A stretch of DNA of 64,000 nt from positions 64,021 to 128,020 of the forward strand of contig CASFGU010000023.1 of the NCBI GenBank assembly GCA_949294395.1, given 5' to 3'. The first letter of the stretch is position 1, and every line of letters starts with the position of its first letter. Source of the stretch: an uncultured bacterium (GTDB taxonomy: Bacteria; Cyanobacteriota; Vampirovibrionia; Gastranaerophilales; Gastranaerophilaceae). The notes under the pieces were generated by a model. That model searched no databases. It was not told the origin of the DNA and worked only from the letters and a program-made list of their open reading frames with translations. The position numbers and the translations under genes are program-made. Shown one piece after another: positions 42,913 to 56,225 of this stretch.

Positions 42913-42934
42913 TTTGAAAAAAGGAGTTATTTGA

Positions 42935-43993
42935 ATGAGAAAAGTTATGGTAACGATGCTTGCGGCACTGCTGGTTTTAGGCGGCATGTCGGCAGCGTTT
43001 GCGTTCGGCAAAAAAGCTGAAAGCATTGCGCTTGTTCCTGCAATGAAATCAGAATCCGCTGCAACTAACAGAATCTGGGTCGGAACATTCCAGCTTGCCT
43101 GGAACGATTTGATGGACGGAATCGTAAAAGGGCCGGTTGTGTTTAAGGGTTCAAAGTCAAGGACTGCAAAGCTTTTAAATCAAAAAAGTTTTACAAAAGA
43201 GGATATTTCTGAGGATGCTTATTACACAACATACGGCGAAATATCACCTGATTTAAAAATAAAGATAGAAAAAGCCATTATGGAAAAGTTTAACGAAACA
43301 AGTGATGTATTAAATGCTGTTGACTGGACACCGGCGCCGGAAAAATATCTGGTTTATGCAATGTTGAAAAAGGATTTCAAGTTCCTCACAGCTTTTGACA
43401 AGCTTAAACCGGCAAAATTCGGCTCAAACAGAACAAAAGTTGAATATTTCGGTATTGATAAAAACAGCGAAAAAATTCTGAGAGAAACTGTTCATGTAAT
43501 GTTTTACAATTCATCTAAAGATTTTGCTGTTGCAATTAACACGCAAGGGGCGGATGTTGTCTATCTTTACAGAACTGATGACGATGAAAATTTTGAAAAA
43601 CTTTATTCCGATATGTTCATTAAAAGAGCAGAGTTCAACGGAAACTCTGACTTTACAGAAAAGGATGAGTTGAAGGTTCCAAATATTAATCTTTATAAGG
43701 AACAGTCCTTCAATGAGCTTTGCGGCCGTGAAATTAAGGGAACAAAGTTCATGATAGATCAGGCTCTTGAAACTGTTGATTTCAAAATGGACAACGAAGG
43801 CGTCAAACTGAAAAGCGAAGCAGTAATTGCGACCAGAATGTCTGCCTTAATCCCTCCACAGAAGATTAAACCGAGAAAATTCTATTTTGATGACACTTAT
43901 GTAATCTTCCTGCAGGAAACAGGTAAAAACAAACCGTATTTTGCAATGCGGGTGAACGATGTCGAAACAATCAACATGACAGGAAAGAAATAA
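42935..43993 (+). CDS. Secreted serpin-like protein
   Basis: A 352-residue exported protein with a signal peptide (about 1-24, ending SAAFAFG). Its order of motifs follows the serpin fold. A strand like s3A (EKYLVYAMLKKDFKFLTAFD followed by PAKFG) comes first. LKVPNINLYKEQSFNELCG corresponds to the 'VKVPKFKIE..YDL...L' region, and FMIDQALETVDFKMDNEGVK resembles helix/strand s5A and the hinge. The C-terminal FYFDDTYVIFLQETGKNKPY is the 'F-x-F-D-x-P-F-x-F-x-I' ending plus 'AMRV'. The hinge reads GVKLKSEAVIAT instead of the small-residue GTEAAAAT of inhibitory serpins, so loop insertion may be impaired and the protein non-inhibitory. If inhibitory, it could block host or neighbour proteases. A hairpin terminator follows. 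Confidence 0.62.
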   Translation: MRKVMVTMLAALLVLGGMSAAFAFGKKAESIALVPAMKSESAATNRIWVGTFQLAWNDLMDGIVKGPVVFKGSKSRTAKLLNQKSFTKEDISEDAYYTTYGEISPDLKIKIEKAIMEKFNETSDVLNAVDWTPAPEKYLVYAMLKKDFKFLTAFDKLKPAKFGSNRTKVEYFGIDKNSEKILRETVHVMFYNSSKDFAVAINTQGADVVYLYRTDDDENFEKLYSDMFIKRAEFNGNSDFTEKDELKVPNINLYKEQSFNELCGREIKGTKFMIDQALETVDFKMDNEGVKLKSEAVIATRMSALIPPQKIKPRKFYFDDTYVIFLQETGKNKPYFAMRVNDVETINMTGKK

Positions 43994-44000
43994 TAAAGAG

Positions 44001-44026
44001 GCGCCGGAATTTTTCAATTCCGGCGC
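44001..44026 (+). terminator. Terminator after the serpin-like gene
   Basis: A perfect 11-bp stem GCGCCGGAATT/AATTCCGGCGC with a TTTC loop, 7 bp after the stop, followed by TTTA. Confidence 0.82.
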
Positions 44027-44042
44027 TTTACTTCATGAATAT

Positions 44043-44237
44043 TTTATCAGGAACTGCAATTAAAAATTTTTCTGTCTGTAACTTCACTCGCTAGCCGTTT
44101 GTAATCAGTTCAACCCGAAGCAAGTGAACTCGTCACTTGCGTTCCTCAGACAGCACTTGCTTTTATTATTGTTTCGCTGAACAACGGCTGCTCTTTCCGT
44201 TGAGCCAGAAAAATTTTTAATTGCAGTTCCCGATAAA
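44043..44237. mobile_element. 195-bp MITE-like element, copy A
   Basis: Terminal inverted repeats of 32 bp with one mismatch (44043-44074 and 44206-44237; core GGAACTGCAATTAAAAATTT) enclose a non-coding core. In the core, GCTAGCCGTTTGTAATC at 44090 and GAACAACGGCTGCTC near 44179 are again complementary in part (CCGTTTGT/ACAACGG). The core closely matches the region at 53864-54016. It lies between convergent genes, where insertion is harmless. Confidence 0.75.
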
Positions 44238-44258
44238 GTAAGCTGCAGTCCTGTCGGG

Positions 44259-47594: not shown

Positions 47595-48254
47595 ATGAAA
47601 AAAGCATTTACATTGGCCGAAGTCCTTATAACTCTTGGAATTATCGGTGTTGTTGCAGCGATGACCCTGCCTGCCATTGTACATAATTATAAAAAGCAGG
47701 AAGTGGAAGCAAAAGTTAAAAAGTTTTATACAACTATGGCACAGGCGGTTAAACTTTCTGAACTGGAGAACGGGCCTGTTTTTTACTGGTCAAAATCCCC
47801 GAGAATAGATGACGGTGAGGGCGGTAATGCCGGCAATCGCGAAGGAGTTCTTGCCTTTTATGATACGTATCTGGAAAAATATTTAAAAAAAGCGGCCGTA
47901 ATAGATAAAGGCGGTACAGCTATAGCAATAATGCTTGCAGACGGCTCTACTCTCAGACTCAGCAGCGGGTATTGTATGGATATAAATTTTGACTACAACG
48001 GAGCAAAAGCCCCTAATACCCAGGGTGTTGATATGTTTGATTTTCTGCTCTGTACTGAAGAAGGTTACAATGCTGGTCTGCTACGGAACCGTCAGAATCC
48101 GTTTGATGCGTATTTTCCGTACTCATGCGTCAGAAAAGGGTGTACCAGAGAGCAGCTTCTTTCGTCATGCAAATCAAATCCTATAACCTGTTCTGCTTTA
48201 ATAATGCACGACGGCTGGAAAATTGCCGACGACTATCCTTATAAACTTAAATAA
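47595..48254 (+). CDS. Type IV prepilin-like protein, module 4
   Basis: A 219-residue prepilin with the shortest leader of the set (MKKA) before FTLAEVLITLGIIGVVAAM; Glu5 is present, residue -1 is Ala. NYKKQEVEAKVKKFYTTMAQ continues the helix. The globular part has a DINFDYNGAKAPNTQGVD block (the 'D-x-N-G-x-K-x-P-N' feature shared by the family) and the cysteine group SCVRKGCTREQLLSSC, ending MHDGWKIADDYPYKLK. AGGAGG lies 5 bp before the ATG, the best ribosome site of the seven pilins. Confidence 0.9.
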   Translation: MKKAFTLAEVLITLGIIGVVAAMTLPAIVHNYKKQEVEAKVKKFYTTMAQAVKLSELENGPVFYWSKSPRIDDGEGGNAGNREGVLAFYDTYLEKYLKKAAVIDKGGTAIAIMLADGSTLRLSSGYCMDINFDYNGAKAPNTQGVDMFDFLLCTEEGYNAGLLRNRQNPFDAYFPYSCVRKGCTREQLLSSCKSNPITCSALIMHDGWKIADDYPYKLK

Positions 48255-50712: not shown

Positions 50713-50916
50713 ATGAGAGCGTTAAAAATTATTTCTTATATTCTTGTTATTATCGGTGCATTGAACTGGGGGCTTGTAGGATTATTTAACATAGATTTGG
50801 TAGCCCTTTTATTTGGAGAAATGACATTGCTTTCCAGAATAGTTTATTCGCTAGTCGGGATTGCGGCCGTAATTTCAATAATTACAAGCTACAGAGATAT
50901 TGCAGACTACAATTAG
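50713..50916 (+). CDS. DUF378 small membrane protein
   Basis: A 67-residue inner-membrane protein of the DUF378 family: two helices (IISYILVIIGALNWGLVGLF and IVYSLVGIAAVISIIT) with the hallmark GALNWGLVG and a YSLVGIAA stretch. The ATG at 50713 has AAAGGAG upstream; a longer in-frame start lacks one. It lies 80 bp after the XRE gene. Its stop overlaps that of the convergent protease gene by 4 bp. Confidence 0.87.
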   Translation: MRALKIISYILVIIGALNWGLVGLFNIDLVALLFGEMTLLSRIVYSLVGIAAVISIITSYRDIADYN

Positions 50917-53720
50917 GCTTCCTCCAGCGACTTTAAAAAGTCTTTGTTTGCATTAAGGGTATTTTCAGTTGCTACGATTGAATATGTCGGCATACCGCTA
51001 AAAATATAGTTTGCTGTGTTATAAATATCGTCAACGGTAATTTTGTCTACCATATCGAGAAGCTGATTTTCTCTTGAAATTCCATAAACGCTGTATGCGT
51101 TATAATCAAGACCGTCTGTCTTGCCGGAATTACTTTCATTCTGTGCAAGAATACGGTTTTTGAGTGCTAATTTAGCGTTATTAAGTTCTTCTTCCGAAAC
51201 TTTTTCGGTTTTTAGTTTGTTAACGTGATACCTGAAGCCGTCTATTGACTTTTTAAGGTTGTCGTAACTGATTTCTCCTGTTTCTTTGTTCTCGGTTGTT
51301 GTTCCGATTGCGAGGTTAAGCACTCTTGTCGTATCAATGCCTGAAAGGCTTGAGCGGACAGAGTAGGCAAGTTTCTGCTGTTCTCTCAGGTCGTTAAATA
51401 GTCTTGATGAAGGGCCTCCGCCGAGAATTATGTTCATTAATTCAATAGCGGTGCTGTCTTTCAGGTTGCCGTTGATATTGAATTTATATGCCATAACAAT
51501 ATTCGCCTGATTTTTATTGTGTATATCAGTAAGAACTTTTGTTTTTTCAACAGGAGTATAGTTGCGGAAGATATAAGGCTCAAATCGTTTTACTTCCGGC
51601 ATCCCTGCAATATTTCTGAATAAAATGGTCTTTAATTCAGGCTTTTTCTCAAACGGCGCGGAAACTGTAATCGACGCTTTTGCCTCTTTCATCATAGAGG
51701 CGTAGAGCGCCTTTACATCATCCAGTGTCACGCTGTCAAGGCTGTTTAAGATTTCTTCCTCGCTGCAGCCGAGAAGAGTTCCTTTGAACAGTTCTGCATC
51801 AAGCTTTTTGTAAGGGGTTTTCTCCGAACGCAGAAGGGAATCCTTTATGGAAGCCTTTACTGTATCCAGAGTTTCCTGAGTGAAACGCGGGTTAAGCAGC
51901 ACTTCTTTTGCTGATTTTAGCGCGTAATCCATATCATCTGCATCAAAACTTGCATCACAGCTTATAAGGTTGACACCTGAGGCAAAATCAATTGTTATAC
52001 CTCTTTTTTCATTGTCGTTGGAAAATTGTGCACAGGATCTTAAGATTGAACCTTCATTTAAAAGTCCGCTTAGTATAAATGCCGTTGCAGCTTTTTCCGG
52101 CTTGCGCGGCAGGTCGTCGCGGAATGAAATTTTCATATACGCGTTTCTGTTTCTGGTGTTATTTGTAATTATCCGGAAGTTATTGTCCGGCATGTTATAT
52201 TGTTTAACATTATCTGTATTGATAGCCTGTTTCCGGCTGGTGCCGGTGAAGGAAATTTTTGCTGCGGTCTTATAGTTGCCGGCAATCGTTTTTTCATCAG
52301 AAGTCGAAGGATGAACCACTGTAATTGCGGTTTTATTAAGGTCAAGATATTTTTTTGCCGTATTCATAATATCTTCCGGCTTCATTTCATTGACTATTTT
52401 TTCAAAGTTGTTTATGTAATCCAGATTATCTTCCAGAATAGATTCGCCGATAAGATTATTCATCAGCGCTGAGTATTCAAATTTTTCTGAAAAAGAATTA
52501 AGAAGCCGTTTTTTTACAATAAGCATTTCATCCTCTGTCGGAAGAATATTAGAGCGGTTTTTAATCTGTTGATAGAGGATTTTCAGAATTTTTTCGGAAT
52601 TTTCTTCATTAGTATCGGTGCTGAACATGATGGCAGTCGGCGCGTTTTGCTGCGGACTGATTTTTTCATCTTCATAGAAAAGATGAGCGTTCAACGGTTT
52701 TATCCACTTCATTGTTGCGGGAGAGGATGTGAGCAGAACTCCGAGCGCTTTCATATAAATTCTGTCTTTAATATTGTTATTTTCAGGGCCTTTGAAGCCT
52801 GCTGCCACAATTGTTGAAACCGCCTTATCCGAAATAATATCTTCTCTTACAGTTTTTGTAACCGGTGTAAAATCTTCAAAATGGCGCTCATTCACCGGCG
52901 GCTTGTTAGAGGTGAAGTATTTTGACACAAGCTGCATTGCATCATCGGGTTTTACATCACCGGAAATTACAGTTACCATATTGGCAGGATAATAATTTCT
53001 GTTGAAGTAATCAACAACATCTTCTCTTGTTAAGTTTGTAATGTTATCTGTCCTGCCGGCAATAACATCCGAGGAGTTTGTTTTTATATTAAAAAGATTT
53101 TTAAAAGTTCTGTTAAAAGCTATATTGTCCGGATTTGATGTAATCATATTTATTTCGGAATTCACGATACCTTTTTCTTTCTCGAGCATGTCCGCGGCAA
53201 AACGCGGGGTTTCGAGCATTGAGGCGTGAATTTTAATTTTCTTTTCAAGATCCCCGTCGTTCAGCAGGAATGAACTAATATAGTAATTAGTTTCCGCAAG
53301 TCCGGTGCTGGCATTTGTTTCGGCGCCCATTTTATCTGTAGTTTTGAAAAATTCTCCAGCCTCAAGACCTTCAGAGCCGTTAAAGAGGTTATGTTCAATA
53401 TAGTGGCTGATACCTCGAATATTGTCAGGCTCGTTCATTGAACCGGTATTCACATAAGTTTTAACAACTGTTTCGCCTTCATTCGGAACAATAATAACCC
53501 GCTGACCGTTTGCAAGTTTATACATGTAAGCTTTTGTATCAAACGGAAGTTCTATTTCTCCGGTTTTAGCATATTTCATCGGAGTTTTTACACTAAAATC
53601 CGGAGTTACATTAGAGATAGTATTTGTCTGCGCGGCGGAATTGTCCGGCTTTTTTTTCTGTGCGGACGGGCGAAGCTGATTATTTATATTTACATTACCA
53701 ATCGGGTTAAAATTTAACAT
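50913..53720 (-). CDS. M16-family zinc peptidase (two-lobed, pitrilysin-like)
   Basis: A 935-residue peptidase of the insulinase/pitrilysin superfamily. The N-terminal lobe has the inverted zinc motif HYIEH (His106, Glu109, His110) in GISHYIEHNLFNGSE and a distal Glu in EKGIVNSEINM. The inactive C-terminal lobe begins after a linker carrying KISFTGTSRKQ (an F-x-G tag as in other proteins here) and includes GGGPSSRLFNDLREQQKLAY, the R-x-Y-type substrate motif. There is no signal peptide; instead it has a Lys/Gln/Asn-rich, proline-containing N-terminus of ~50 residues. It would degrade peptides in the cytoplasm or, if exported by an unrecognised route, outside. Confidence 0.9.
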   Translation of the reverse strand: MLNFNPIGNVNINNQLRPSAQKKKPDNSAAQTNTISNVTPDFSVKTPMKYAKTGEIELPFDTKAYMYKLANGQRVIIVPNEGETVVKTYVNTGSMNEPDNIRGISHYIEHNLFNGSEGLEAGEFFKTTDKMGAETNASTGLAETNYYISSFLLNDGDLEKKIKIHASMLETPRFAADMLEKEKGIVNSEINMITSNPDNIAFNRTFKNLFNIKTNSSDVIAGRTDNITNLTREDVVDYFNRNYYPANMVTVISGDVKPDDAMQLVSKYFTSNKPPVNERHFEDFTPVTKTVREDIISDKAVSTIVAAGFKGPENNNIKDRIYMKALGVLLTSSPATMKWIKPLNAHLFYEDEKISPQQNAPTAIMFSTDTNEENSEKILKILYQQIKNRSNILPTEDEMLIVKKRLLNSFSEKFEYSALMNNLIGESILEDNLDYINNFEKIVNEMKPEDIMNTAKKYLDLNKTAITVVHPSTSDEKTIAGNYKTAAKISFTGTSRKQAINTDNVKQYNMPDNNFRIITNNTRNRNAYMKISFRDDLPRKPEKAATAFILSGLLNEGSILRSCAQFSNDNEKRGITIDFASGVNLISCDASFDADDMDYALKSAKEVLLNPRFTQETLDTVKASIKDSLLRSEKTPYKKLDAELFKGTLLGCSEEEILNSLDSVTLDDVKALYASMMKEAKASITVSAPFEKKPELKTILFRNIAGMPEVKRFEPYIFRNYTPVEKTKVLTDIHNKNQANIVMAYKFNINGNLKDSTAIELMNIILGGGPSSRLFNDLREQQKLAYSVRSSLSGIDTTRVLNLAIGTTTENKETGEISYDNLKKSIDGFRYHVNKLKTEKVSEEELNNAKLALKNRILAQNESNSGKTDGLDYNAYSVYGISRENQLLDMVDKITVDDIYNTANYIFSGMPTYSIVATENTLNANKDFLKSLEEA

Positions 53721-55458: not shown

Positions 55459-56190
55459 TTACCATGGATAGTCATCTTTTATTTCCCAGCCGTCAATCAT
55501 AATCAGGGCTGCACAGTAGAAGCCGGACTGGGTTTTGTTGCATCCTCTGCCGTTTCCGCCGTTCAGGAACCAGTCTCTGTCAAATCCGGTAGACCCTTCT
55601 ATTGCGGAAGTGTAGCCTACACCTGCAGGGACAAAGCGTTTTTCAGGCTGAATTGAAAAGGCAAACACATCTTTCCCGTACTGGTTTGGTCTTTTGAAAC
55701 CGTTTAAATCAATAATGATATTCATTGCCTGATGTACTGTCCCTGTATCAGGATCCGGCAGGCTGTCAACTAAATCTGCCGCAACTATCATGGTTCCGTC
55801 TGCGAAAACCAGTTTAGGGTTGTTTTCTTTTGCCTCGCCGTAGTGGTCGCAATTTCCGCCTTTAAGACAGGTGTAATGTATATCTTCTGGAAAATCTCCG
55901 GGAAGATATTCTTTTATAATTTTTATGTATGGTTTTATATATTTATCAGTAAACATTTCAGTATGGTCATTGCCGCCAATCATAAAATCCCAGTCTTTAA
56001 CAGGGCCGTGGTCTACTTCTGCCCGTGTAATCGCCTGCTGCATGATTGAATAGAATTTCTTTAACTGTGTTGCTGTTTGTTTTTTCTGATAATTGCCGAT
56101 AAGAGTTGGCAGCGTCATGGCAGCGACGACTCCGATAATCCCGAGCGTGATAAGCACTTCTGCAAGTGTAAAAGCGTTTTTCTCTTTCAT
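55459..56190 (-). CDS. Type IV prepilin-like protein, module 6
   Basis: A 243-residue prepilin. The start ATG 56190 is chosen because GGAG lies 6 bp upstream; an upstream ATG at 56202 would place that SD inside the gene. Leader MKEKNA, then FTLAEVLITLGIIGVVAAM with Glu5 and NYQKKQTATQLKKFYSIMQQ. Body with CLKGGNC loop, NIIIDLNGFKRPNQYGKDVF (the family's D-x-N-G-x-K/R-x-P-N segment) and FSIQPEKRFVPAG. C-terminal cysteines in RGCNKTQSGFYC precede MIDGWEIKDDYPW. Minus strand, divergent from the regulator at 56343. Confidence 0.9.
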   Translation of the reverse strand: MKEKNAFTLAEVLITLGIIGVVAAMTLPTLIGNYQKKQTATQLKKFYSIMQQAITRAEVDHGPVKDWDFMIGGNDHTEMFTDKYIKPYIKIIKEYLPGDFPEDIHYTCLKGGNCDHYGEAKENNPKLVFADGTMIVAADLVDSLPDPDTGTVHQAMNIIIDLNGFKRPNQYGKDVFAFSIQPEKRFVPAGVGYTSAIEGSTGFDRDWFLNGGNGRGCNKTQSGFYCAALIMIDGWEIKDDYPW

Positions 56191-56225
56191 AAAATTCTCC
56201 ATCTGTTATATTGAATTCTATTATT

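Follow-up and report, generated by a model that had tools for sequence, protein, structure and literature searches.

Inhibitory and Non-Inhibitory Serpins

Inhibitory serpins (PF00079), among them alpha-1-antitrypsin and the bacterial chloropin, miropin and siropins, are among the closest known counterparts of the bacterial family described below. The mark of an inhibitor, in the passages of PMC2689274 and PMC8233489 that bear on it, is threonine or serine at P14 followed by small residues at P12–P9, and arginine at P14, P12 or P10 is described as abolishing activity (PMC6329500, passage on the hinge). Prokaryotic serpins were placed in groups S–U by Spence et al. 2021, where most are stated to carry N-terminal transport peptides and a Streptomyces clade of Group U is proposed from sequence to be non-inhibitory (PMC8233489, passages cited); no word beginning cyanobacteri occurs in the main text of that paper. 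The chloropin paper, in the part drawn on here, states that it is not known whether any prokaryotic serpin functions other than as an inhibitor (PMC10090351).

Non-inhibitory eukaryotic serpins such as ovalbumin combine the serpin fold with a hinge off the inhibitory consensus, as does the bacterial family described below. HSP47 is another serpin of this kind. In ovalbumin the residue at P14 is arginine (PMC6329500, same passage). The family described below differs from these proteins in having hydrophobic valine or leucine rather than a charge in the hinge, in the conservation of that hinge across a bacterial family, and in a reduced core. Compared with inhibitory serpins, it keeps the element order from helix F onwards and a similar loop length before s4B, but its core is shorter, its hinge is not ExGTEAAAA, and its identity to solved serpins is 8–14%. 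The Streptomyces clade of Group U is likewise prokaryotic with proposed non-inhibition; there, however, it is the breach and shutter that diverge, while many members keep the hinge motif and can be found by BLAST (PMC8233489, passage on that clade), whereas in the present family it is the hinge that differs, and a search with the window protein alone finds no serpin. Among the literature matches listed, judged by title and the start of the abstract, there was no paper on this family.

The Gene and Its Surroundings

The gene lies in a 64,000-nucleotide stretch of DNA, referred to as the window, from an uncultured gut bacterium of the family Gastranaerophilaceae (class Vampirovibrionia). A preliminary description had placed an open reading frame for a secreted serpin-like protein at 42935–43993; the start and stop are exact, and the two motifs it quoted, GVKLKSEAVIAT (residues 289–300) and FYFDDTYVIFLQ (residues 316–327), are both present in the protein. 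The features of the gene, those outside the reading frame being read from the sequence, are as follows:

42920..42926, + strand: ribosome binding site AAAGGAG, 9–15 bases 5' of the ATG
42935..43993, + strand: reduced serpin-fold gene, ATG to TAA, 352 amino acids plus stop
42935..43003, + strand: putative signal peptide, residues 1–23, cleavage after AFA by eye
44001..44027, + strand: terminator-like GC-rich hairpin followed by the T-run TTTACTT, just past the stop

The putative signal peptide agrees with the claimed secretion, and a simple rule finds an N-terminal hydrophobic stretch in 106 of the 109 family members (distinct ORFs among loci L001–L189, near-identical ORFs being counted separately). 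Lipobox-like motifs in 26 of the 109 come from a permissive pattern and carry no weight. The gene is single-copy in its genome. Upstream lie a yggU (DUF167) gene, with its stop codon 22 bases from the ATG, and relA/spoT on the opposite strand; a small helix-turn-helix gene and radA are the 3' neighbours.

Several other elements of the window were recorded. Just past the gene, at 44040–44240, a 38-base inverted repeat (92% complementary) encloses 125 bases; with 28 match rows in the genome, including its own copy and its two arms, this element has the appearance of a dispersed, MITE-like small repeat. Two stretches, 47595–48254 and 55459–56202, hold prepilin-like genes whose N-terminus reads FTLAEVLITLGIIGVVAAMT, and 50913–53720 encodes a 935-amino-acid protein that, by eye, has the look of a double M16-type peptidase, with the motif HYIEH.

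Relationship to Serpins in Sequence

When the window protein is the only query, no serpin is matched in Pfam, NCBIfam or the PDB. Its Pfam result is WHIM1 alone (E 0.018, under its cut-off), it is not over the Pfam Serpin cut-off (the library threshold), and a PF00079 search of its own genome returned nothing at E ≤ 1. The serpin assignment therefore rests on the family to which the protein belongs and on the predicted fold.

Among 64 sequences, composed of the window protein and 63 of 80 loci kept from a public genome collection, 24 have a PF00079 match at E ≤ 1 (best E 8.9e-6), and the next Pfam family matches four. In a set of 24 divergent members, six reach E ≤ 0.01, and one of them, L176, is over the PF00079 cut-off (27.5 vs 27 bits). 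A class-wide PF00079 search gave matches at E ≤ 0.01 in 41 genomes of the window's taxonomic family; among the matches listed, which cover 38 of those 41 genomes, 37 of 38 rows fall inside the serpin-fold gene when coordinates are compared by eye, and the row outside it, in G025, has five internal stops. Nearly all rows in this gene correspond to the last quarter of the Serpin model, about positions 285–369. The strong, canonical serpins of that search came from two further families, f3 and f8, of the class.

Profile comparisons point the same way. The profile of the 24 divergent members found 33 PDB sequences at E ≤ 1 (best E 0.0072), all of them variants or pieces of one protein, alpha-1-antitrypsin; the 64-row profile found no serpin in the PDB, so that the more diverse profile was needed. 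Aligned by hhalign with 24 canonical serpins of the class, the divergent profile gave P 9.6e-5 and a probability of 58.5%, collinear from helix F to the C-terminus, against 6.7% in a first run with the larger, less diverse profile. The canonical set comprises 24 of the 30 loci L111–L140, after removal of L133 and L134 (failed pattern) and of L115, L116, L120 and L130 (likely near copies). At the level of the family, these matches indicate serpin-superfamily homology to PF00079. The label serpin-like, and the search with the serpin family model by which it was to be checked, thus fared unevenly: 24 of the 64 sequences and L176 bear it out, while the window protein and its own genome give no match.

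Predicted Fold and Reduced Core

An AlphaFold2 model built from the 64 sequences (pLDDT 85.9, pTM 0.81) was compared with solved structures. Foldseek returned 280 PDB chains at E ≤ 0.001 (best E 2.8e-11), the best 50 of the 280 all being serpin entries, although TM-scores by query length reach just 0.38–0.53. The top matches were to corticosteroid-binding globulin in its cleaved form, whose VIA Z-score is tied with those of other cleaved serpins; that protein retains a hinge capable of insertion together with a hormone site, both counted here as differences from the present family. VIA gave Z 19.8 with cleaved vaspin (3.5 Å over 270 residues; identity 8–14%), and all 50 VIA matches listed are serpins. 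Vaccinia K2 and Pso p27, which we take to be serpins, are among the structural matches. A canonical serpin (L200) treated alike reached Z 49.6 against the best value of 19.8 for the window protein, which marks the latter as a clear but distant serpin. The structural comparison proposed in the preliminary description is borne out by the Foldseek and VIA matches listed; at the family level neither an absence of serpin matches nor a different fold was found.

The model contains sheets A, B and C and a C-terminal loop followed by s1C, s4B and s5B, as in a serpin fold. Its elements were assigned as follows:

before helix 51–64, + strand: strand 45–49 (s6B), from the model
43085..43126, + strand: helix 51–64, helix B equivalent, motif WVGTFQ (model, element order vs control)
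43247..43291, + strand: helix 105–119, helix F equivalent (model and profile alignment)
43346..43384, + strand: strand 138–150 (YLVYAMLKKDFKF), s3A equivalent (model; by-eye match to LVLVNAIYFLGKW of L200)
43757..43789, + strand: strand 275–285, s5A equivalent (model and profile alignment)
43799..43822, + strand: hinge GVKLKSEA, residues 289–296, modelled within strand 289–300
43823..43873, + strand: remaining reactive-loop equivalent, residues 297–313, variable, model low-confidence from residue 300 on
43874..43954, + strand: C-terminal strands 314–340, s1C, s4B and s5B equivalents, FYFDDTYVIFLQ...PYFAMRV (model, profile alignments)

Set against the element list of the control, the model has s6B, helix B, a short helix C, a strand at 96–102, helix F, s3A and most later elements. 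Helices A and D, one strand and helix E between helices C and F seem to be without counterparts in the model, as probably is helix I, and sheet A appears to be one strand short. Compared with the canonical class serpins, the family has about 38 residues fewer between helix B and s3A (medians 91 vs 129) and about 14 fewer between s3A and the hinge (148 vs 162); both distances were measured by regular expression with some false matches (negative values), so that medians alone are given. Helices of at least four residues after the signal peptide number six in the model and nine in the control, and a serpin core is described as having 7–9 helices (PMC11226102, passage on the fold). The protein is therefore described here as a reduced relative and not as a typical serpin.

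The Hinge and Its Register

The hinge conforms to G-[VGAI]-x-[LVI]-[KR]-[SN]-E in all 109 members. Glycine at 289 and glutamate at 295 are invariant (109/109 each), and the positions between and after them vary little: 290 is V in 87, G in 13, A in 8 and I in 1; 292 is L in 103, V in 5 and I in 1; 293 is K in 106 and R in 3; 294 is S in 104 and N in 5; and 296 is A in 108 and S in 1. Of the seven regions measured the hinge varies least, with a mean entropy of 0.39 bits compared with 1.54 bits over residues 30–345 and 2.66 bits in the distal loop. The canonical Gly-Thr/Ser hinge occurs in none of the 109, while all 24 canonical class serpins have E-x-G-T and alanine at both P12 and P10. The hinge had been called non-canonical from the window protein alone, and the description extends to the family: the canonical form is missing from every member, and a near-constant sequence stands in its place.

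Whether that hinge is substituted or interrupted by a four-residue insertion depends on the register of the alignment. Without a gap, and counting from the glycine as in the larger profile, P14 is V, P12 is L and P10 is S; among the 109 members, E is found at P17 in one, and T/S at P14, A/G/S at P12 and A/G/S at P9 in none. The strand ends support this register, as four residues separate the end of s5A from the glycine in both model and control. HMMER and hhalign instead insert four residues after the hinge glycine, which makes S-E-A P14–P12 and gives the hinge a nearly normal beginning; P14 is then S in 104 members, P12 is A or S in all 109, and P10 is small in one. Judged from the aligned sequences, the hinge falls outside the published inhibitor rule in the ungapped register and only partly outside it in the gapped one. 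It has neither a charged P14 nor a proline, so that the specific changes published as destroying inhibition are absent. At what we take to be the breach and shutter positions (the Asn of NAxYF, the Trp of GxW and the His of HKxF), the equivalents by eye are Tyr/Ala, Phe and Glu/Thr, in a part of the alignment where the register is uncertain.

The gapped register gives rise to the main alternative, that protease inhibition by loop insertion persists and that a VKLK insertion has merely displaced the hinge, leaving S294-E295-A296 as P14–P12. The gap that both HMMER and hhalign open after the hinge glycine aligns S/K-E-A-A with T-E-A-A, the residues concerned are kept (S or N in 109/109, E in 109/109, A in 108/109), the distal loop is variable, and insertion would still be conceivable for S-E-A in this register. 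However, the larger profile aligns without a gap, and 28–35 residues separate the glycine from the s4B aromatic in the family against 29–32 in canonical serpins (26–29 to the D/N of D-R-P-F, plus three), similar distances for which no insertion is needed. P10 in the gapped register would be I, M, L or V in 108 of the 109, and sheet A is apparently one strand short. We consider a displaced but working hinge possible, with perhaps one chance in a handful of being right. A different, near-constant sequence appears to stand where the trap hinge would be, and the function is therefore probably other than classic serpin inhibition; as two alignments keep S-E-A after a four-residue insert, the loss of inhibition is likely but unproven. 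Between the two interpretations offered at the outset, lost inhibition or another use appears the likelier. The link to inhibition of host proteases found no support, the canonical hinge being absent from 109 of 109 members.

The model places residues 289–300 in a strand that follows s5A, the arrangement of serpins in the cleaved or latent form. A reading of this inserted strand as a constitutively relaxed state was dropped because the canonical control folds likewise: L200 was also modelled loop-inserted, with a strand at 320–330 from the hinge glycine, so that the conformational state cannot be read from the model. The control fold is itself thin, having been built from five sequences against 64 and without templates, with a best model at pLDDT 80.5 and three of five models at mean pLDDT 43–51. 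AlphaFold is said to force serpins into the native state, and the loop-inserted L200 is contrary to that report (PMC11226102, passage on prediction).

The Upstream BlaI/MecI-Type Operon

Scoring covered the flanks of 92 of the 109 members (loci from L031 on), 88 of which have at least 900 bases upstream. Directly upstream in 54 of the 88 stand genes for a BlaI/MecI-type repressor and a small helical protein. If the first in-frame ATG is taken as the start, 18 of the 54 have an ATGA overlap of stop and start and a further 13 have a spacing of -1 or 0; the repressor of L039 matches Penicillinase_R (E 1.8e-17). This arrangement would suit a BlaI-controlled envelope unit in which the serpin-fold protein, the repressor and the small protein are made together and act in the same pathway, and was at one point taken as strong evidence of partnership. 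Against it, neither gene is upstream in 32 of the 88, the genome of the window splits the operon (contig C25) from the serpin-fold gene (C23), and no BlaR1-type M56 match was found in that genome at E ≤ 0.01. That reading was weakened by the distribution of the small gene: 184 of 191 genomes carry it, and among the genomes without the serpin it occurs in 18 of the 20 listed out of 44. Being near-universal with or without the serpin, it leaves the operon link positional and optional, and we regard a common pathway as unlikely.

The small protein merits a remark of its own. At L197 3247–5279, in the genome of the window, a secreted-looking 392-amino-acid protein stands with a BlaI-type repressor and a 122-amino-acid protein, without a serpin; a relative of the latter (L039:4615–4998) has no Pfam match. 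The 122-amino-acid family, found in those 184 genomes, is an unnamed core gene.

Distribution and Conservation

A six-frame search found the serpin-fold family in 147 of 191 genomes of the window's taxonomic family, and in 135 of the 160 of high quality; no match was obtained in 44 of the 191. In the public collection 103 relatives were confirmed, and 47 of the 80 kept are labelled Gastranaerophilales (37), Melainabacteria (8) or Scatousia (2). Profile searches at class and phylum level, in genome sets that are samples from larger groups, gave matches in 170 of 289 and 156 of 386 genomes, respectively, all in the window's family except two genomes from a second family of its order. IMG/VR yielded no relative. 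Between the window gene and its 97% identical relative L031, dN/dS is 0.047.

Two variants of gene architecture were noted. In genus g29 (L170–L175; for example L173 3595–5121, + strand, and L172 3295–5121, + strand) a signal peptide and then a Pro-, Ala-, Glu- and Val-rich linker of some 150–280 residues precede the serpin-like domain, which gives the impression of a domain tethered across the envelope. At L179 3873–6087 and L180 4044–6183 the gene is in tandem duplicate.

The occurrence in 147 of 191 genomes, the low dN/dS and the serpin signal that arises independently in relatives make the observation more than chance. AlphaFold was trained on many serpins, and the fold might be a modelling bias laid over an unrelated one; the window protein has no serpin match alone, and its structural matches are only 8–14% identical, but relatives match serpins independently by sequence, and the alignment is collinear from helix F onwards, as far as the C-terminus, which makes this very improbable. 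That the gene is a decaying, functionless former serpin, as the 44 genomes without a match and the rows with internal stops in G080, G084, G106 and G176 might suggest, is scarcely credible, being already contradicted by the conservation seen in dN/dS against L031, in G289 and E295 in 109 of 109 members, and in retention by 135 of 160 high-quality genomes.

Proposed Role and Significance

The reading that we prefer, and to which we give an even chance, is that of an exported, reduced serpin relative in which the fast trap is gone, the hinge is built into sheet A as a stable strand, and the molecule has a binding or chaperone-like role in the envelope. The gene, its conservation, the serpin-related sequence of its relatives, the serpin fold and reduced core of the model, and the altered hinge are established above, and the remaining points are proposals. 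On this reading a divergent, shortened serpin relative is kept within one order (Candidatus Gastranaerophilales), and its putative signal peptide would export it to the periplasm or outside. Fast insertion of the hinge would no longer serve to trap proteases; the amphipathic hinge, with V, L, S and A on one face and K, K and E on the other, may instead form a stable strand of sheet A. The envelope job, whether binding or chaperone-like, might involve partner contact through a conserved surface and the variable loop. A more specific form of this proposal is offered tentatively: metastability would have been given up altogether, with the hinge strand permanent in a smaller sheet A, and the conserved protein would act in the envelope of this one order of gut bacteria as a factor for binding or folding.

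Present in 147 of 191 genomes, reduced in its core and constant in its non-canonical hinge, the family offers a natural test of the minimal size of a serpin, and of whether a serpin can lose its trap and yet stay useful.
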